Part shown: piece by piece, positions 6,780 to 34,482 of the stretch
Numbering within the stretch: the first letter of the stretch is position 1
Layout of the letters: each line of letters starts with the position of its first letter
Origin: Brooklawnia cerclae
GTDB lineage: Bacteria; Actinomycetota; Actinomycetes; Propionibacteriales; Propionibacteriaceae
DNA: 64,000 nt
Direction: 5' to 3'
Assembly (NCBI RefSeq): GCF_011758645.1
Contig: NZ_JAAMOZ010000002.1
Span: forward strand, 186,001-250,000
Made by a program: the position numbers and the translations under genes
Notes under the pieces: model-generated
Told to the model about the DNA's origin: nothing
Databases searched by the model: none
The model's input: the letters and a program-made list of their open reading frames with translations, nothing else

Positions 6780-6814
6780 GCCGGTTCAATGCTTGTGGGG
6801 GCGCCGGTATTCCA

Positions 6815-6840
6815 GGAATGATTGAACTGTCATCTACGTT
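6815..6840 (+). promoter_or_regulatory. Candidate SigR/SigH-type promoter (GGAAT-N18-GTT)
   Basis: GGAAT at 6815-6819 and GTT at 6838-6840 with exactly 18 bases between, matching the thiol-stress sigma factor consensus of actinobacteria. The ATG at 6850 would be only a few bases from the predicted transcript start, so the message would be near-leaderless. Three other promoters in the window share this form. Confidence 0.45.
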
Positions 6841-6849
6841 GGGACGGGC

Positions 6850-7875
6850 ATGAGCGTGGAGTTTGGCATCGACACCTTCGGCGACGTGACCGATGATCCG
6901 GCGGGCGACCGCCTGTCGCAGGCGCAGGTGATCCGCAACGTCGTGGCGGAGGGCGTACTGGCCGACCAGGTGGGCCTCGAGCACATCGGCATCGGCGAGC
7001 ATCACCGCGACGACTTCGCGATCTCGGCGCCCGACATGGTGCTGGCCGCGATCGCCGCGCGTACCGAGCGCCTCCGGCTGGGCACCGCGGTCACCGTGCT
7101 GAGCTCGGACGACCCGGTGCGCGTCCATGAGCGGTTCGCGACGCTCGACGCGGTCTCGAACGGACGGGCCGAGATCACCGTCGGCCGGGGCTCGTTCATC
7201 GAGTCCTTCCCGCTGTTCGGCTACGACCTGGCCGACTACGAGTCGCTCTTCGAGGAGAAGCTCGCCATGTTCGTCGAACTCCTCAAGCAGGAGCCGGTCA
7301 CGTGGCAGGGGCAGCACACACAGGCGCTGGCGGGCGTCCAGCTGCATCCGCGGATCGAGCACGGGCCGCTGCCCACGTGGGTGGCCGTCGGCGGAAGCCC
7401 CGAGTCGGTCGTGCGGGCCGCGCGCTACGACCTGCCGATGATGCTCGCGATCATCGGCGGCCCGCACGAGCGCTTCGCACCCTTCGCGGATCTCCATCGC
7501 CGCGCGCTCGAACAACTCGGGAAGGCGCCCCAGCCGGTCGGATTCCACTCCTACGGGCACATCGCCGAGACCGACGAACTCGCCCGTGAGCAGGTGTACC
7601 GGCCGTGGCTGGAGATGACCGGACGCATCGGCCGCGAGCGCGGTTGGCCGCGTCCCGACCGCGAGCAGTTCCTCCATGAGATCGAGCACGGCGCGATGAT
7701 CGTGGGCTCCCCGGAGACGGCCGCGCGGAAGATCGCCGCGGCCGTGCGGGCCCTGGATGCCGAGCGCGTCCAGTTGAAGGTGAGCACCGGGACGCTGCCG
7801 CACGAGCGCATCATGGAGTCGATCGAGCTGTACGGGACGAAGGTCGCCCCTCTGGTGCGCGACATGCTGGCTTGA
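6850..7875 (+). CDS. LLM-class flavin-dependent oxidoreductase
   Basis: A 341-residue luciferase-like monooxygenase-fold protein (TIM barrel binding FMN or F420). Features include the N-terminal strand VEFGIDTFGD, the flavin-site IGIGEHHRDDFAISAPDMVL, and the segment RTERLRLGTAVTVLSSDDPVRVHERFATLD that typifies the family, followed by GRAEITVGRGSF. The substrate is unknown. It sits opposite the F420/NADP-type reductase gene, so reduced flavin or deazaflavin could be supplied by that neighbour (inference). A GGAAT-N18-GTT element directly upstream suggests induction by thiol-oxidative stress. Confidence 0.85.
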   Translation: MSVEFGIDTFGDVTDDPAGDRLSQAQVIRNVVAEGVLADQVGLEHIGIGEHHRDDFAISAPDMVLAAIAARTERLRLGTAVTVLSSDDPVRVHERFATLDAVSNGRAEITVGRGSFIESFPLFGYDLADYESLFEEKLAMFVELLKQEPVTWQGQHTQALAGVQLHPRIEHGPLPTWVAVGGSPESVVRAARYDLPMMLAIIGGPHERFAPFADLHRRALEQLGKAPQPVGFHSYGHIAETDELAREQVYRPWLEMTGRIGRERGWPRPDREQFLHEIEHGAMIVGSPETAARKIAAAVRALDAERVQLKVSTGTLPHERIMESIELYGTKVAPLVRDMLA

Positions 7876-24359: not shown

Positions 24360-27300
24360 TCAGCCGAACCGGACCTGACGTCCGATCGTCCCGACCAGCG
24401 AGGCGCGGTAGGCGTCGCTCGACAGCCGTTCGAGCTCGGCGTGAGCCTTCGCGGCGCGATCGGCCAGGTTGAGCCGTCCGATGACCGACTCGTTGCCGGG
24501 CTCGGAGGCGAACGCCTGCAGGTGCTCGAGGCCCTGCCGCTGATGCTCCACCTCGGCGGCCTGCTTGGCGTCGAGGCGGGCGGCGTACCAGTCGCTGGCG
24601 AGCACGCTCTCGCGGGTGAACAGCTCACGGAACTCGGGCGAGTCGAGCTTCCATCCCTCGGCCGTCTGGCCGTTGGCCATGATCTCCAGCAGCCCCTTGA
24701 GCGGGGGCACCGCCAGTTCGATGCCGTTGTCGCGGAAGTACGCCTCGGCCACCCGCTGGTGGGTGGTGACGATGACGTCCATGCTCTCGGCGAAGATCGC
24801 CGCGTCCTGCAACTCGGGACGCAGCATCTCGTCGGTGAACACCACGTCGGGATGCAGGAAGATGCGCCCGAAGTAGGTGGTCGCGAAGCGCTCGTTCATG
24901 CGGTAGCCGAGCCGCGAGGCCAGGATCGTGCGGTCCTCGTACTCGAAGTCCTCGAGCTTGTCGAGGTAACCGTCACGGATCAGCACGTCGGCGCGGCGCT
25001 CGTCCGGCCACATGCGGCTGAAGAGCTCCGGCACCAGCATCGAGATGTCGTGGTCGACCTTTACCTTCGGGCCGATGTAGCCGGCCGAGCTGAGCCAGCC
25101 GTCGTACCCGGTGATGGCGTACGACAGGAAGGCCGCGTTGAGGTCGATGATCGGAGGCATCGCGTTGAACGGGCCCTTGGTGAGAGCGCCCTCGCTGCCC
25201 GCGCCGGTCGTCGAGGGCGACTTGCCGGTCATCGAGCTGATGAACTCCATGAACAGTTCGGGCAGTTCCATGTAGTGCAGCGGGTTGTACACGCACAGCG
25301 GCGGCACACCCTCTTCCTTCGGGTTGTTGCGACGGCCCGCGGCGACGATGTCGACCGACAGGGGTGCGAACTGGGTCGTCGGAAGCTTGCGCACCAGATG
25401 GGACGCGAGCTCGGCGGCAGCCGTGGCCTCCGGGTTCGACACATCGGGGCGCACCTGCAGGTAGCGGGGGTTCTTCGAGCGCTTCCCGTTGACCAGACGC
25501 GGCTGGTCAGAGGCGATCCAGTACTTGGGCGACTCCTCGTCGTCCTTCCCGGAGACCTGGCTGATCAACTGCTGCATCGGCTCGGTGTACTCGCTGAAGA
25601 CCTGTGCGTTGCTCTTCAGCTCGCGCGCGTCGGCGTGGGTCAACGGCTCGAAGTTGGAGATGAACGTGCCGGACTGGGCCAGGTCGTGCTCGGTCTGCCT
25701 GTCGTAGCCACGGTGGATGGCGTCGTCCGGGCGCTGGAACAGCAACTGCTCGCAGTTGAGGACGAACTTGCGCGGCAGCCCCTCCTGGTTGCCGAAGCCC
25801 GCGGGCGCCTGCTCGAACGGGGGACACACCGTGGAGGCCGTGATGTCGTCCTCGGTCTGCACCTTGATCGCCGGGCTGTAGTCCGGACGCAGGCTGAACA
25901 GCCGCCAGCTCCCGTCGGGCTGGAACCCGACGCGCAACTGATTGGCGATGACCTTGTCGCCGTCGAGCCGCAACGCGTTGCCGGGCCGGCCGTTCATGAT
26001 GCCGACGCTGAAGTGGCTGCGCCAGTCGGTGCCCCACTCCGGCTTGTAGTAGCGCTTGACGGTGAACAGGAGTTCCTTGACGTGCGCCGGGATCGAGCGC
26101 AGGAAGTGGTTGTAGTCGTCGGTGTACTCGCTACGCGGCGTGAGCAGCTTGATGACCGAACCGAGGCTGCGCTTGTCCGACAGGATCGGGCGGCGGTCCT
26201 TGCCCACCCGCTCAGGGTCGCTGAAACGATCGGAGAAGTCGGAGTCCAGCAGGCGCTGCACCTGGCGCATGTCGTCCTCGAAGTCGGCCGCGTAGGCGTT
26301 GCCGAAGACGAACGCGTCGCTGATCGACTTGCTGATCTCGCTCTTGCCGCCGCCCGACACCGTCGAGGGCTTGTGGCACTCGGTCGAGATCGGCGACACC
26401 CCGACCAGGTGCCACTGCGTCTCGTCCATCTCGCGATGCTTGGCGAAGATGCGGTAGCCGTTCGGGGTGATGTACACCTTCCCGGCGAGCAGCTTGACCT
26501 GGCTCGTGCCCGCGTCGGACGCCCAGGTGACCGTCTGGTCGCGCATGCTGTAGGTGGCGCCGCCCGGCACGAGGACGATGTGCGGCTGCTGCAGGTCGAG
26601 CGCATGGCCCTCCGGCTGCAGTTGGAAGCGCTCCGGCTCGCGGGCGATCACGTCGGCCAGCGTGTAGTCGGCCGGCGTGTACCCGTCGGTGAACTCGTTG
26701 CCGAGGTTGTACGCGGGGAAGACGAGGGCGCCACCCGAGTGCTCCTCCTCGGCGCAGCCCAGCAGGTTGGCCGCGTAGGACAGCTGGGTCTTGACCTCTT
26801 TCTTGCAGTAGCCGAAGTAGTTGTCGGCGATCACGGTGACCATGACGCCACGCTCGTCGCGTGCGCAGACCTTGAAGGCCTGGCCGCCGTTGTAGAGGTC
26901 GTCCTCGTTCTTCCAACACTGGCCGTCGCGGCGCTGGCGCTCCGTGGCGTCGTCCCAGTGCGGCATGCCGAGGCTCTTCTTGGTCACCTTGGTGAGGTGC
27001 GGGGCCAGGATGACACAGCCGGTGTGCCCCGACCAGCCGGTGGGATCGAGAGCGGCGTCGTTCTCGGGCAGCTGCGGGTCGCCCGCGTTGCCGAAGATGC
27101 CTTCGACGAAGTCGAGGTTGCAGACCAGGCCGCCGGGGACGATGAAGCGCGTCTCCATCGTCTTGCGGACGCTGCCACCGGGAACCTCCGGGACGACGAG
27201 CGGGCGCATGAGCAGCGAGACGAAGCACGCGGCCGGCTCGGCCTGGCCGGCGGTGTAGGGCAGCACCATGTCCTCGCGCGGGGGCTGGAAGGCGAGTTCC

Positions 27301-27758
27301 AGCAACTGGGCGAAGACATCACGGGTCACGACGATCTTGTCGTCCGGGATGGGCAGGCCGCCCTCGGCCACGTGGAAGACGCCGGCCGTGGTGCGGCGGT
27401 CGTTCGCGGGATTGTGCAGCACGCCGTTGGTGAGCCGGTAGCTCGACAACAGCGCGGAGTGGAACTCGTCGCCGTCCGCCGGCAGGCTGAGCCCACGGGC
27501 GAGCCCCGCATGATCGAGGATCAGGGTCTGCTTGGGGAGTTGCGGCCGCGCAACTGCACCCTCGAGGTAATCGTCCAGGAAGTCCTGGATGCGCTGGTCC
27601 GCAGGGCTGAGCCGATCTGACAGGCGGCGAGAAAGTTCGCGCTGGCGGGCGAGCAGGGGCTCAACGAGGCCGATCCCGCTCTCCGTCTCGGCTGGTCTCG
27701 GCAGCTCGAGGAGAGCCAGCCGCAGGTTGATAGCCGCATTCAAGGTGTCCGAAGCCAT
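24360..27758 (-). CDS. Putative pyrophosphate-dependent phosphoenolpyruvate carboxykinase
   Basis: A 1132-residue cytoplasmic protein. PPi-PEPCK makes oxaloacetate plus PPi from PEP, CO2 and phosphate, or the reverse, and was first characterised at the gene level in Propionibacterium and Entamoeba (chain about 1100-1150 residues). Length, lack of any transmembrane or signal segment, and the phosphate-binding-like loop HKPSTVSGGGKSEISKS near residue 460 fit that family. GATYSMRDQTVTWASDAGTS and PGGLVCNLDFVEGIFGNAGD are other conserved-looking blocks. Start 27758 (MASDTLNAAINL) is chosen over an ATG 33 codons upstream that lies in the regulatory region. ATP- and GTP-PEPCK motifs are absent. The assignment comes from recalled family features, not from a search. 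Confidence 0.7.
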   Translation of the reverse strand: MASDTLNAAINLRLALLELPRPAETESGIGLVEPLLARQRELSRRLSDRLSPADQRIQDFLDDYLEGAVARPQLPKQTLILDHAGLARGLSLPADGDEFHSALLSSYRLTNGVLHNPANDRRTTAGVFHVAEGGLPIPDDKIVVTRDVFAQLLELAFQPPREDMVLPYTAGQAEPAACFVSLLMRPLVVPEVPGGSVRKTMETRFIVPGGLVCNLDFVEGIFGNAGDPQLPENDAALDPTGWSGHTGCVILAPHLTKVTKKSLGMPHWDDATERQRRDGQCWKNEDDLYNGGQAFKVCARDERGVMVTVIADNYFGYCKKEVKTQLSYAANLLGCAEEEHSGGALVFPAYNLGNEFTDGYTPADYTLADVIAREPERFQLQPEGHALDLQQPHIVLVPGGATYSMRDQTVTWASDAGTSQVKLLAGKVYITPNGYRIFAKHREMDETQWHLVGVSPISTECHKPSTVSGGGKSEISKSISDAFVFGNAYAADFEDDMRQVQRLLDSDFSDRFSDPERVGKDRRPILSDKRSLGSVIKLLTPRSEYTDDYNHFLRSIPAHVKELLFTVKRYYKPEWGTDWRSHFSVGIMNGRPGNALRLDGDKVIANQLRVGFQPDGSWRLFSLRPDYSPAIKVQTEDDITASTVCPPFEQAPAGFGNQEGLPRKFVLNCEQLLFQRPDDAIHRGYDRQTEHDLAQSGTFISNFEPLTHADARELKSNAQVFSEYTEPMQQLISQVSGKDDEESPKYWIASDQPRLVNGKRSKNPRYLQVRPDVSNPEATAAAELASHLVRKLPTTQFAPLSVDIVAAGRRNNPKEEGVPPLCVYNPLHYMELPELFMEFISSMTGKSPSTTGAGSEGALTKGPFNAMPPIIDLNAAFLSYAITGYDGWLSSAGYIGPKVKVDHDISMLVPELFSRMWPDERRADVLIRDGYLDKLEDFEYEDRTILASRLGYRMNERFATTYFGRIFLHPDVVFTDEMLRPELQDAAIFAESMDVIVTTHQRVAEAYFRDNGIELAVPPLKGLLEIMANGQTAEGWKLDSPEFRELFTRESVLASDWYAARLDAKQAAEVEHQRQGLEHLQAFASEPGNESVIGRLNLADRAAKAHAELERLSSDAYRASLVGTIGRQVRFG

Positions 27759-27812
27759 GGCGCCAGTCTCCCAGAATGGTTTTTCGAGCGGGAGGGCGGA
27801 CCAGAACGTGGA

Positions 27813-27845
27813 GCAACAAAGTCTTTGTGTTGCCATATGTTGCCA
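27813..27845. promoter_or_regulatory. Cluster of GGCAACA half-sites in front of the PPi-PEPCK gene
   Basis: On the minus strand GGCAACA occurs twice, 10 bp apart, followed by an inverted TTTGTTGC; all lie 55-90 nt upstream of the ATG. The phased repeats suggest an operator, though no named regulator fits clearly. Confidence 0.4.
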
Positions 27846-27878
27846 AAGTGTCGGCATGGCTGCCGCATCCGGGTACGA

Positions 27879-29237
27879 TCAGCGGCCCGAAGCCTGCGGG
27901 TCGCCTCCGTGCTGGTCGCGCCAACGCTGCCGCTCGCGGGCGATCACGTCCCGCCAGGGCAGGAACACCGTGCCGTTCGTCCGGGTGTCCAGCCTGCGGG
28001 CCCGGCCCCGTGCACGGAGGAAAGCGGCCAGCCCGAGCCCCTGCATGACGAACTGGGTGGACATCGCGATGCGGAAGTCGGTGCGGGTGTAGCCGCCGCC
28101 CAGAAGGTCGAGCGTGAGGCCGATCATCCACGTGGTGACCAGGCACGAGATGAATCCCCCCATGACGACCACGCCGGTGGCCGTGCCCGTGTGGGCCTTC
28201 CGGTTGGCCGTGCGGGCGATGTCGTAGCTGACGTTGCCCCCCGGCTCCGCGGCGCCCGAGCCGAGGCACATCAGCGCCAGCAGCCAGTAGGGCGCCTGCC
28301 CGGGCCAGGCGAGGACGGCGACCCACGGCGCGGCCCCGAGCACGAAGCCGATCAGCACCAGGGTGCTGCGGCGCAGGGGGTGGCGTCCGGTCATGTAGCC
28401 CTGCACCAGGCCTGACGCGGCGCTCGCAGCCCAGCGCCAGACGAACAGCGAGCCGGCCTGCGCCGGGGTGTAGCCCTCGCCCTGCACGAGGAAGGGCTGC
28501 CCCCACATCATGATCAGGTTCATCGACCACGAGGACGCCACCCAGTGCCCGAAGAACGCGGTCTGGGTGCCGGGCTGGCGCAGCACCTCGAACAGTTGCC
28601 CGCGGGTCCCGCCGCCGGGACGCGGTCCCGTCGTGACGACGGCGCCGGCAGGGGCGTTGCGGATGCACAGGAACGCCAGACAGGCCGCCAGCAGGCCGAC
28701 GGCGGCGGCACCCAGGAGGCCCGTCGTCCAGCCGTCGGTGTGGACGAGCGCGGCGAACGGGAAGGCGCTGAGGAGTTGGCCGGTGGCTCCGAGGATCGCC
28801 GTCATCTGCGTCGCCAGCGGCACCCACCGGGCGGAGAACCACTGGGGCAGGAGCCGGCTCGTCGGGGTCCAGGTGAAGGAGTCGCCGAGGGCGACCAGTG
28901 CGCGTCCCGCGATGGCCACGGGGACGGAGTCGGTGAACGCGAGGATCACCTGCCCGGACATCATCACCAGCGCCCCGGTCGTGATCACGGCCCGGGATCC
29001 GAAGCGGTCGGCGAGCAGTCCGGCAGGTACCTGCCCGAGGGCGTAGACGAGCAGTTGGAGGACCACGAACATGCTGACGACGCTGGCGCCGGCGGAGAAC
29101 CGTTGCGCCGCCTCCAGCCCGACCACGCCGAACGAGGTGCGCTGCAACACGGCCACCGTGTAGGCGAACAGCGCTGCCAGATACACCACGGCCGTCCGTG
29201 TGGGATTGATCCCATAGGGTTTGGACGCCGTGCTCAC
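27879..29237 (-). CDS. MFS transporter
   Basis: A 452-residue, 12-helix major facilitator. Motif A in the first half reads PAGLLADRFGSRAVI, and LALMCLGSGAAEPGGNVSYDIA lies in the second half. The C-terminal 45 residues are basic and cytoplasmic. It is co-directional with the PPi-PEPCK gene, with 120 bp between them that hold repeated half-sites, so it is probably a separate unit. The substrate is unknown. Confidence 0.8.
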   Translation of the reverse strand: MSTASKPYGINPTRTAVVYLAALFAYTVAVLQRTSFGVVGLEAAQRFSAGASVVSMFVVLQLLVYALGQVPAGLLADRFGSRAVITTGALVMMSGQVILAFTDSVPVAIAGRALVALGDSFTWTPTSRLLPQWFSARWVPLATQMTAILGATGQLLSAFPFAALVHTDGWTTGLLGAAAVGLLAACLAFLCIRNAPAGAVVTTGPRPGGGTRGQLFEVLRQPGTQTAFFGHWVASSWSMNLIMMWGQPFLVQGEGYTPAQAGSLFVWRWAASAASGLVQGYMTGRHPLRRSTLVLIGFVLGAAPWVAVLAWPGQAPYWLLALMCLGSGAAEPGGNVSYDIARTANRKAHTGTATGVVVMGGFISCLVTTWMIGLTLDLLGGGYTRTDFRIAMSTQFVMQGLGLAAFLRARGRARRLDTRTNGTVFLPWRDVIARERQRWRDQHGGDPQASGR

Positions 29238-29403: not shown

Positions 29404-29436
29404 GGGCCCCGGTTTGTCTGCAGACAACTGGGGCCC
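29404..29436. repeat. Near-perfect 33-bp palindrome
   Basis: GGGCCCC-GGTTTGTCTG meets CAGACAACT-GGGGCCC with one bulge and one mismatch and no loop. It lies 167 bp upstream of the MFS start. The absence of a loop favours a protein-binding site over a terminator. Confidence 0.5.
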
Positions 29437-29708: not shown

Positions 29709-29747
29709 CCCCAGGGTTGTCCACACCGTCTGTGGACAACCCTGGGG
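29709..29747. promoter_or_regulatory. Perfect inverted repeat carrying paired DnaA-box-like sites
   Basis: Two perfect 17-bp arms (29709-29725 and 29731-29747) around a 5-bp loop. Each arm ends in TTGTCCACA (or its complement), the form of DnaA box reported for high-GC actinobacteria such as Streptomyces. A further one-mismatch box (TGTGGATAC) lies at 29914-29922. Confidence 0.55.
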
Positions 29748-29905
29748 CTCTCGTGCCCGCCGTGAACCCTGATCTCCGCGCGCCGATCGTCTGGATGATC
29801 GGAAAGTCCGGGCCGCGCAGCCGCAACAGCAGATATGTCGATGACTAGGTAAGACAACTGTTTCGTTTAGTGAGGACAACTCAGTTGCGTAAATGCTCGG
29901 GATTC

Positions 29906-29931
29906 GGAATGCCTGTGGATACCTTCGTGTT
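29906..29931 (+). promoter_or_regulatory. Candidate SigR/SigH-type promoter of the microprotein operon
   Basis: GGAAT (29906-29910), 18 bases, GTT (29929-29931). The predicted start near 29938 leaves a leader of about 37 nt that includes the strong Shine-Dalgarno at 29961. A DnaA-box-like TGTGGATAC lies in the spacer. Confidence 0.55.
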
Positions 29932-29974
29932 GTCCGAAGCGACAAGACCAGATACAACGCAGGAGGTGCCCAGG

Positions 29975-30076
29975 ATGATCAAGTTCTTCCAGGACCTGAT
30001 GGATCGCTACTTCGACAGCGTCACCGAGTTGACCGAGTACCAGGAGCGCCTGAAGCGGCAGACCGCGGCGCGCTGA
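29975..30076 (+). CDS. Microprotein 1 (33 residues) of a three-gene operon
   Basis: MIKFFQDLMDRYFDSV followed by a charged helix ending KRQTAAR. AGGAGGT stands seven bases before the ATG, the best Shine-Dalgarno in the region, which fixes this short start over a longer in-frame ORF. The N-terminus (M-aromatic/aliphatic-K, then DRYF) is shared with microprotein 2 and loosely with microprotein 3. No cysteines, no signal peptide and no transmembrane segment are seen; the chain should be amphipathic and helical. I do not recognise the family. It is the first gene behind a thiol-stress-type promoter, and the operon ends at the terminator at 30479. Confidence 0.65.
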   Translation: MIKFFQDLMDRYFDSVTELTEYQERLKRQTAAR

Positions 30077-30121
30077 GGCCGCACCAGGCGTCCCACGAAA
30101 GCCCCTGAGAGGAAGCCGACA

Positions 30122-30232
30122 ATGTTCAAGACAATCGACCACGTCAGCGACCGGTACTTCGAGCCGCCGGCCGGACAGCCGGAAGTGGCGGTGTTCCGGT
30201 TCCTGAGCCGCTTGTTCGCTCACCAGCGCTGA
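30122..30232 (+). CDS. Microprotein 2 (36 residues)
   Basis: MFKTIDHVSDRYFEPP opens the chain, with the same DRYF(E/D) block as microprotein 1 at almost the same distance from Met1. The rest is VFRFLSRLFAHQR, an amphipathic basic helix. GAGAGGAAG precedes the ATG by about seven bases. It starts 45 nt after microprotein 1. Function unknown; independent Shine-Dalgarno sites for all three genes argue that each is translated. Confidence 0.62.
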   Translation: MFKTIDHVSDRYFEPPAGQPEVAVFRFLSRLFAHQR

Positions 30233-30279
30233 CACGACTCGTCCACACCAAACCGAACGGCATCAGAAGGAGTGACATC

Positions 30280-30411
30280 ATGTACGGACTTGTGAAGCTG
30301 ATGGGAGCTCGTTACCGCGAAGCGGCACGCGAACTGGCGGCGCACCTGAACGACGCCCATTCGAACGACCCTCTCATGTACGACGCCCGGCCGGACAGCT
30401 TCGTCGGCTGA
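30280..30411 (+). CDS. Microprotein 3 (43 residues)
   Basis: MYGLVKLMGARYREAA, then ARELAAHLNDAH and a flexible acidic tail ending DSFVG. ARYRE corresponds to DRYFE/D of the other two. AGAAGGAGTG lies seven bases before the ATG. It is 47 nt downstream of microprotein 2 and is the last gene before the intrinsic terminator at 30479. It resembles no family I can name. Confidence 0.62.
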   Translation: MYGLVKLMGARYREAARELAAHLNDAHSNDPLMYDARPDSFVG

Positions 30412-30478
30412 CACCCGGTCGGACGGAGCATCCCGAACACAACACAATCCCCGCCGGAGGGTTTCCGGTACCATCGAG

Positions 30479-30516
30479 GGCCTCATCCCACAGCGACGTG
30501 GTGATGGGCCGTTTTC
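30479..30516 (+). terminator. Intrinsic terminator of the microprotein operon
   Basis: A 13-bp stem (GGCCTCATCCCAC and GTGGTGATGGGCC, one mismatch) with a six-base loop, followed by GTTTTC. Confidence 0.75.
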
Positions 30517-30569: not shown

Positions 30570-30826
30570 CTAGGGAAACGCTGATCAACGATCCCTGAGC
30601 CTGTCGAAGGTCCCTGAGCCTGTCGAAGGGTCGTGGAACTTGCTCAACGGTCCCTGAGCCCGTCGAAGGTCCCTGGAACTTGCTCAACGGTCCCTGAGCC
30701 TGTCGAAGGGTCGTGGAGCTTGATCAACGGTTCCCTGAGCCTGTCGAAGGGTCGTTGAACTGCCGTCCGGCAACGGGCTTCGACAGGCTCAGCCAGCGTT
30801 GCCCGCATTGATCAGCGGTTCCCTAG
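30570..30826. mobile_element. MITE/REPIN-like element, copy 1 (257 bp)
   Basis: Bounded by CTAG at both ends with inverted terminal sequence CTAGGGAA(A/C)CGCTGATCAA (19 bp, one mismatch). The interior is a run of REP-type units CCCTGAGCCTGTCGAAGG in both orientations. Its right CTAG supplies the TAG stop of the TIGR03085 gene. It has no coding capacity. The copy at 34270 is in the opposite orientation. CTAG at both ends could be a 4-bp target duplication. Confidence 0.7.
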
Positions 30827-31479
30827 ATTCCCAGGGACATGCCGCGCAGGGCTTCGACAGCCTCGGGGCGACCGTCGAGAGTGACGTGCGCGGCGTCTGA
30901 CCGACCGTACAGCCACAGCACCAACTCGCCGGCCTCGCCGCGCAACGTCACGGGCGAGGGGCCAGTCGAGACGGCGTAGACCTCGTCGGTGCGCACGCCG
31001 TCGCGAATCCGCTCCAGCACCACCCCGGTGGGACTGCGGCGCAGACGGAGGCGGGCCATCGACACCGCCTGATGCCACAGCCAGTCGTCGCGGTCGGGCG
31101 CGATGATGCGGGGCTGGACGACGTGCCCGCCGCCGCGGCGCAGGTCCTCGTGGTGGACGAAGAACTCGAGCGCGTTGACCCGCTCGTCCACCCACGGCCA
31201 CGACATCGGGTTGAACCGGCCCGGGCCGCGGCGCACGAGCGCCACCAGGTCGTCGAAGGGCACGTCGGCGAGCAACTGGTCCATCCTCCTGTCGAGGCGT
31301 CCGGACAGCGGCTTCACGACGATGCCGATGCCCGCCACGGGGTCGGTCTCGCGCACGTGGAGGTGCGCGGTGAGGCGCTGGGCGTCCCATCCCTCGCACA
31401 GGGTCGGCGCGCTGGGGCCGAGTGTGGTCAGCAGGTCGCACAGTTCCCGGCGTTCGTCCCGGGCGATCCCCAAGCTCAT
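30823..31479 (-). CDS. TIGR03085-family metal-binding protein (DinB/mycothiol-type fold)
   Basis: A 218-residue actinobacterial protein of the DinB/maleylpyruvate isomerase superfamily. The N-terminal four-helix bundle includes ERRELCDLLTTLGPSAPTLCEGWDAQRLTAHLHVRETDP, with the family His, and a second metal-ligand region VNALEFFVHHEDLRRGG. The C-terminal domain (LRGEAGELVLWLYGR) is typical. Function is not established; relatives act in mycothiol-dependent reactions. The stop codon TAG lies inside the terminal CTAG of the adjoining mobile element, so the element inserted exactly at the gene's end. Confidence 0.82.
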   Translation of the reverse strand: MSLGIARDERRELCDLLTTLGPSAPTLCEGWDAQRLTAHLHVRETDPVAGIGIVVKPLSGRLDRRMDQLLADVPFDDLVALVRRGPGRFNPMSWPWVDERVNALEFFVHHEDLRRGGGHVVQPRIIAPDRDDWLWHQAVSMARLRLRRSPTGVVLERIRDGVRTDEVYAVSTGPSPVTLRGEAGELVLWLYGRSDAAHVTLDGRPEAVEALRGMSLGI

Positions 31480-34269: not shown

Positions 34270-34482
34270 CTAGGGAACCGCTGATCAATGCGGGCAACGC
34301 CGGCTGAGTCCGTCGAAGCCCGCTGCGGACGGCAGTTCCGCGACCCTTCGACAGGCTCAGGGATCGTTGACGGGCTCAGGGATCGTTGAGCAAGTTCCGC
34401 GACCCTTCGACAGGCTCAGGGATCGTTGACAGGCTCAGGGACCTTCGACAGGCTCAGGGACCGTTGATGAGTGTTTCCCTAG
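34270..34482. mobile_element. MITE/REPIN-like element, copy 2 (213 bp), inverted relative to copy 1
   Basis: CTAGGGAACCGCTGATCAA at the left and the complement of CTAGGGAAACACTCATCAA at the right, with the interior made of CGACAGGCTCAGGGA-type units. The right-hand CTAG provides the TAG stop codon of the HpaI-type aldolase gene, just as copy 1 does for its neighbour. The two copies flank a 3.4-kb block. Confidence 0.7.

Follow-up and report, generated by a model that had tools for sequence, protein, structure and literature searches.

A short interval of the window (the whole stretch of 64,000 nt analysed here) carries three consecutive small open reading frames (ORF1 to ORF3), which we read as a tricistronic operon under SigR control that encodes paralogous, helical microproteins; these would dock on a larger partner protein. 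The probability of this reading as a whole is put at about 0.6, and its parts differ in strength. The features of the locus are collected in Table 1, where G003 is the genome of a sister species.

Table 1. Features of the microprotein locus and its neighbourhood; positions are those of the window.
Feature	Position	Strand	Description and basis
SigR/SigH-type promoter CGGAAT-N18-GTTG	29905-29932	+	sequence; motif also before sigR, dnaK, clpB, PAC2, rpmE and clgR-like genes
ORF1	29975-30076	+	ATG start; 33 aa, MIKFFQDLMDRYFDSVTELTEYQERLKRQTAAR; Shine-Dalgarno (SD) AGGAGGTG; coding score, G003 homologue, single-helix model
ORF2	30122-30232	+	ATG start; 36 aa, MFKTIDHVSDRYFEPPAGQPEVAVFRFLSRLFAHQR; coding score, ORF1-like N-terminus, modelled C-terminal helix 20-35
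ORF3	30280-30411	+	ATG start; 43 aa, MYGLVKLMGARYREAARELAAHLNDAHSNDPLMYDARPDSFVG; SD AAGGAG; coding score, RY 11-12 and EL 18-19 in register with ORF1
Terminator-like hairpin with GTTTTC 3' foot	30476-30516	+	fold -21.1 kcal/mol, z -3.13
PPi-dependent PEP carboxykinase (PPi-PEPCK) gene	24360-27857	-	phmmer match to 8e1u and 6k31, PPi-PEPCK chains of known structure; synteny
MFS transporter gene	27879-29237	-	PF07690; separates PEPCK from the microprotein unit; missing from the short interval of five relatives

The first-pass annotation of this DNA had described three tandem ORFs of 33, 36 and 43 codons at 45-47 nt from each other, and both the coordinates and the coding scores agree with it (the gaps are 45 nt between ORF1 and ORF2 and 47 nt between ORF2 and ORF3). 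Ribosome sites were scored as matches to AGAAAGGAGGTG. The sites of ORF1 and ORF3 lie 6 and 7 nt from the respective starts; however, ORF2 has a weaker site, only GAGG at 9 nt, and the earlier description of a good Shine-Dalgarno for every ORF was generous in this one case. The GC content at third codon positions is 97% in ORF1, 89% in ORF2 and 76% in ORF3. Codon usage was scored as log-odds, with 15 long ORFs of the window taken as genes for training; ORF1, ORF2 and ORF3 reached +0.65, +0.41 and +0.34 bits per codon, against a mean of -0.42 (sd about 0.2) for stop-free frames of the same length. None of 3000 such null frames matched any of the three ORFs (p<1/3000 each), and 35-codon pieces of the long-gene set had a median score of 0.48. 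With these gene-like scores all three ORFs look translated, unlike chance frames, and they very probably constitute a real translated operon. Cysteine is absent from all three microproteins.

When the proteins are aligned without gaps from Met1, R11-Y12 is common to ORF1, ORF2 and ORF3. ORF1 and ORF2 have the N-terminal segment M-I/F-K-x(6)-D-R-Y-F-D/E in common, and their N-terminal score over 15 columns was reached in none of 20000 residue permutations (p<5e-5); the three-way score was likewise reached in 0 of 20000. In addition, EL at positions 18-19 is common to ORF1, ORF3 and the G003 homologue. The pairs that include ORF3 are weak when taken alone (permutation p 0.003-0.08), and therefore the alignment of the N-termini noted earlier stands for ORF1 with ORF2 and for the three together, but only weakly for ORF3 pair by pair. 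Since the N-termini align ungapped from Met1, paralogy of ORF1 to ORF3 is likely, with ORF3 as the least certain member by similarity, and tandem duplication would account for their origin. The pattern SD-ATG-(15-30 nt)-DRYF(D/E) occurs at two sites in this genome, both within the operon. A search of the family for the DRYF pattern, which the first-pass annotation had proposed, thus returned the operon, but no site in the other 198 family genomes. A scan of contigs for SD-ATG-DRYF(D/E) gave, among the matches listed, chance sites in unrelated taxa.

The thiol-stress-like promoter GGAAT-N18-GTT claimed for the unit is present (GGAAT at 29906-29910, then N18, GTT at 29929-29931 and GTTG at 29929-29932); it lies on the coding strand, with 42 nt from the end of the motif to the start of ORF1. 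Its form agrees with the published SigR/SigH consensus, GGAAT-N16-19-GTT, and in C. glutamicum dnaK, ClgR and the promoter consensus are tied to SigH (PMC3489674). A genome-wide search with GGGAAT-N18-GTTG found 12 exact sites, among them sites directly before the gene of an ECF sigma factor, dnaK, clpB and a PAC2-family gene, and sites that differ in the first base lie before rpmE (L31) and the gene of a ClgR-like regulator. The ECF sigma factor scores 336.7 bits with TIGR02947 (cut-off 251.55), and its gene is followed by that of an RsrA-like anti-sigma factor with HLLACEKC, which at 53.6 bits is below the cut-off of 62.5. With at most one mismatch, the motif has 165 genome sites versus 45 for a reversed control. 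Most of the other exact sites fall within long open frames; therefore, the motif alone is not specific, and position and strand count. Taken together, the sigma/anti-sigma pair and the motif before the sigma gene itself and five typical targets ground the thiol-stress-like promoter well and strengthen the earlier claim. Control of the microprotein operon by SigR is accordingly a prediction that we consider probable, and the sequence would have the operon expressed under stress. In the 15 kb G003 locus, no GGAA(T/C)-N17-19-GTT was found on the strand that encodes the ORF1 homologue.

Several other sites of this type and of this region were observed. A SigR-type motif (6814-6841 of the window) stands directly before the gene at 6850-7875, which encodes a luciferase-like flavin monooxygenase (PF00296), and another (G000:C1:1597349) stands directly before a second gene of this kind, identified by eye; the motifs before both genes suggest a common stress control. 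The SigR-type promoters upstream of dnaK (L287) and clpB (L288) either overlap TTGAGT-ACTCAA inverted repeats, which resemble HspR/HAIR boxes, or stand before them, and both genes therefore look dually controlled. Meanwhile, a perfect 17-bp inverted repeat, CCCCAGGGTTGTCCACA-CCGTC-TGTGGACAACCCTGGGG, at 29709-29747 carries two exact actinobacterial DnaA boxes (TTGTCCACA), and boxes with one mismatch are found at 29871-29879 and 29914-29922, the latter within the spacer of the SigR promoter. The inverted repeat is possibly a DnaA-binding site or a hairpin outside a known origin, and an oriC or DnaA-titration role of this upstream region is conceivable.

At the other end of the unit, the first-pass annotation had placed an intrinsic terminator. 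The stable hairpin that it implied is there, with 14 pairs, one mismatch and one bulge; however, the T run at the 3' foot is only four long, and the hairpin is missing from the list of a stricter terminator scan. The predicted transcript ending at this hairpin is about 580 nt. The first gene past it is a convergent MDMPI-like gene (30823-31479, - strand), and besides this gene and that of PPi-PEPCK the flanks encode a DUF6394 protein and a TrkA-type channel. The ORFs were also considered as leader peptides of an attenuator; since no co-directional gene follows the hairpin, this is unlikely. The gap between the operon and the MDMPI-like gene is filled by one of two clusters (30594-30750 and 34345-34460) of a dispersed repeat, CCTGAGCCTGTCGAAGG / CCTTCGACAGGCTCAGG. 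On the other side, a palindrome, TTGTCTGCAGACAA, which we take to resemble the operator of a GntR-type regulator, lies at 29413-29432 upstream of the MFS gene. GTTGCCA-N4-GTTGCCA direct repeats precede the PPi-PEPCK gene in relatives (L218-L222) and are imperfect in the window (about 27825-27850); they are likely to be a regulator site of the PPi-PEPCK gene.

The PEPCK, MDMPI-like, DUF6394 and TrkA-type genes are syntenic in six genomes of the same genus. The distance from PEPCK to the MDMPI-like gene is about 60-250 bp in five congeners, 2.97 kb in the window and 3.1 kb in G003. In G003, a homologue of ORF1 (a GTG-started ORF of 27 codons with an SD, MIKFLKELRDRFLLDELADHENRMREL, beginning MIKFLKELRDRF; L223:8296-8379) is adjacent to and directly divergent from PEPCK. 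Its score with ORF1 is 53, while the next, unrelated small ORF among 2687 scores 26, and the score was reached in none of 20000 permutations. The leader and SD are similar in the two, and first, second and third codon positions differ at 16, 6 and 11 sites, so that second positions are the most conserved. A DNA pattern, derived from the ORF1 and G003 sequences themselves, was searched in 197 family genomes; G003 was the only other zero-mismatch site, and the remaining sites had at least 3 mismatches. The score, the leader and the codon-position evidence argue that ORF1 is conserved at the protein level beyond this species, in G003 at least, and it has been kept while the flanking proteins of the window and G003 are only about 49-74% identical.

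Beyond G003, relatives of the ORFs were not found in the genomes searched. ORF1 is not at the syntenic place in five other congeners, whose PEPCK is 78-81% identical, which means that it is dispensable in the genus. The DNA around the start of PEPCK, taken from about 29 further genomes of the family, showed no ORF1 relative outside G003, and ORF2 and ORF3 have no relatives in G003 or the other family genomes searched. Therefore, the conservation of the three frames in relatives, on which the first-pass annotation had staked its case, holds for ORF1 in one of seven congeners (G003, at the syntenic place) but not for ORF2 and ORF3. As protein queries against 78-198 genomes, ORF1 to ORF3 each matched itself only, and the low-score matches that were inspected (L034, L036, L053, L055 and L067) lay in unrelated frames. 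When the operon was searched as DNA in 78 relatives, all matches were short, of 30-40 nt, and those inspected again fell in unrelated frames. A profile of ORF1, the G003 homologue and ORF3 found nothing else above noise in 197 genomes, and two weak matches to short frames were rejected on inspection.

The narrow distribution invites the view that the ORFs are lineage-specific, short-lived or new frames with little or no function. The PEPCK-MDMPI interval does gain genes: it holds the MFS gene here, and in G003 (L223:8593-11016) it encodes YbaB-like, WXG100-like and TPR proteins, so it appears to be a variable site gaining gene cassettes, and ORF2 and ORF3 are orphans. However, the retention of ORF1 between diverged flanks, together with the codon bias and the placed stress promoter, makes this view unlikely. 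The same position between PEPCK and the MDMPI-like gene, found in both genomes that have ORF1, and the divergent arrangement in G003 could instead mean that ORF1 is a small modulator of PPi-PEPCK, an anaplerotic enzyme, or of its transcription, with ORF2 and ORF3 as later copies. Yet the five congeners have PEPCK without ORF1 at the locus, the PEPCK-flanking DNA fetched from other family genomes holds no candidate, and the MFS gene stands between ORF1 and PEPCK in the window; we regard such a role as quite improbable.

A stress-induced non-coding RNA, in which the short frames are incidental or lightly translated, would fit the stress sigma promoter, the short transcript with its end hairpin and the missing relatives of ORF2 and ORF3. 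It would not account for three consecutive frames with gene-like codon usage, for peptides that are similar in register or for the retention of ORF1 as a protein in G003, and Rfam gave no credible match; it is given little weight. The ORFs were also considered as remote actinobacterial relatives of the DUF1127 small proteins, a stress-related family, on account of the spacing YR-x4-EL in ORF3, which with Y-x5-EL in ORF1 recalls the DUF1127 core and was counted in favour of this relation. Proteins of that family, such as YjiS, CcaF1 and the SDPs of A. tumefaciens, are often shorter than 50 aa, occur often as several per genome and act via protein or RNA contacts, and their hallmark is an arginine-rich, positively charged composition (PMC12501420). 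In contrast, ORF1 to ORF3 have net charges of -1 to +1 and are not strongly basic, no Pfam match was obtained at E<=10, and PF06568 did not exceed its cut-off in any of the 197 genomes of the family searched. Membership was rejected, and even a distant relation is very improbable.

The statement that the proteins resemble no known family is borne out by the family libraries. Besides Pfam, PADLOC and PDB gave no match for the microproteins, and NCBIfam and PHROGs gave chance-level scores only. Nothing above chance was found by tblastn of ORF1 against phages and plasmids or by blastn against plasmids, and viral contigs searched with the ORF1 pattern gave no match; a phage origin of the operon has no support. 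Unmatched in known families and, in the case of ORF1, conserved in a sister species, the microproteins look like real, undescribed stress proteins. However, the "undescribed system" proposed in the first-pass annotation exceeds this evidence, and we speak rather of an undescribed microprotein family.

By the models of ORF1 and ORF2, the microproteins may be mostly helical. ORF1 is modelled as one helix (residues 2-32, pLDDT 92.8), although a lone helix easily reaches a high pLDDT, and ORF2 has a poorly defined N-terminus before its C-terminal helix. Amphipathicity beyond that of shuffles is marginal for ORF1 (p=0.04) and nil for ORF2 and ORF3. Under the SigR-controlled operon reading, thiol-oxidative or heat stress would free the SigR-like sigma factor from its RsrA-like anti-sigma factor, and RNA polymerase would initiate about 7 nt past the GTT element, at about 29938. 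The three ORFs would each be translated from their own ribosome site, and transcription would stop at the hairpin near 30510. The common N-terminal segment would then dock on a larger protein, with the diverged C-termini giving differing effects. For proteins of 33-43 residues with no known catalytic domain, binding a larger partner is the most economical view, and by analogy with other stress-related proteins under 50 residues we infer that they probably act in this way. Any partner named at present would be a doubtful choice. A bolder version, in which a new helical family under the stress sigma factor, multiplied in tandem in one propionibacterial lineage, reprograms a specific enzyme or protein-quality-control machine (for instance a Clp protease, RNA polymerase or PPi-PEPCK) under thiol or heat stress, with a different specificity for each of the three copies, is tentative and rather unlikely.

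In Actinobacteria, stress regulons are as a rule drawn up from gene annotation, and most proteins of fewer than 50 residues escape notice. The present case starts from a type of promoter that the same genome allows one to check, and it leads to three unannotated, related microproteins, one of them conserved across species. If confirmed, a new small-protein family joins the SigR/SigH response, and the operon offers a compact system for the binding, multiplication and divergence of stress-induced microproteins. Among known systems, DUF1127 proteins are similar in being shorter than 50 aa and several per genome, but ORF1 to ORF3 lack a profile match and the arginine-rich, basic character, and the taxa differ. 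The propionibacterial PPi-PEPCK neighbourhood is similar in that PPi-PEPCK has ORF1 upstream of it in the window and the ORF1 homologue upstream of it in G003; however, the small gene is missing there in most congeners. The SigR regulon of Streptomyces and the SigH regulon of Mycobacterium and Corynebacterium share with this genome the promoter GGAAT-N18-GTTG, the sigma factor with an RsrA-like anti-sigma factor, and the same motif at dnaK, clpB, clgR-like, PAC2 and rpmE genes. The differences are that the microproteins match no searched family, that the control of the operon is predicted and that the sister species lacks the motif at its locus. The operon encodes a lineage-restricted new microprotein family, probably within a known regulon.
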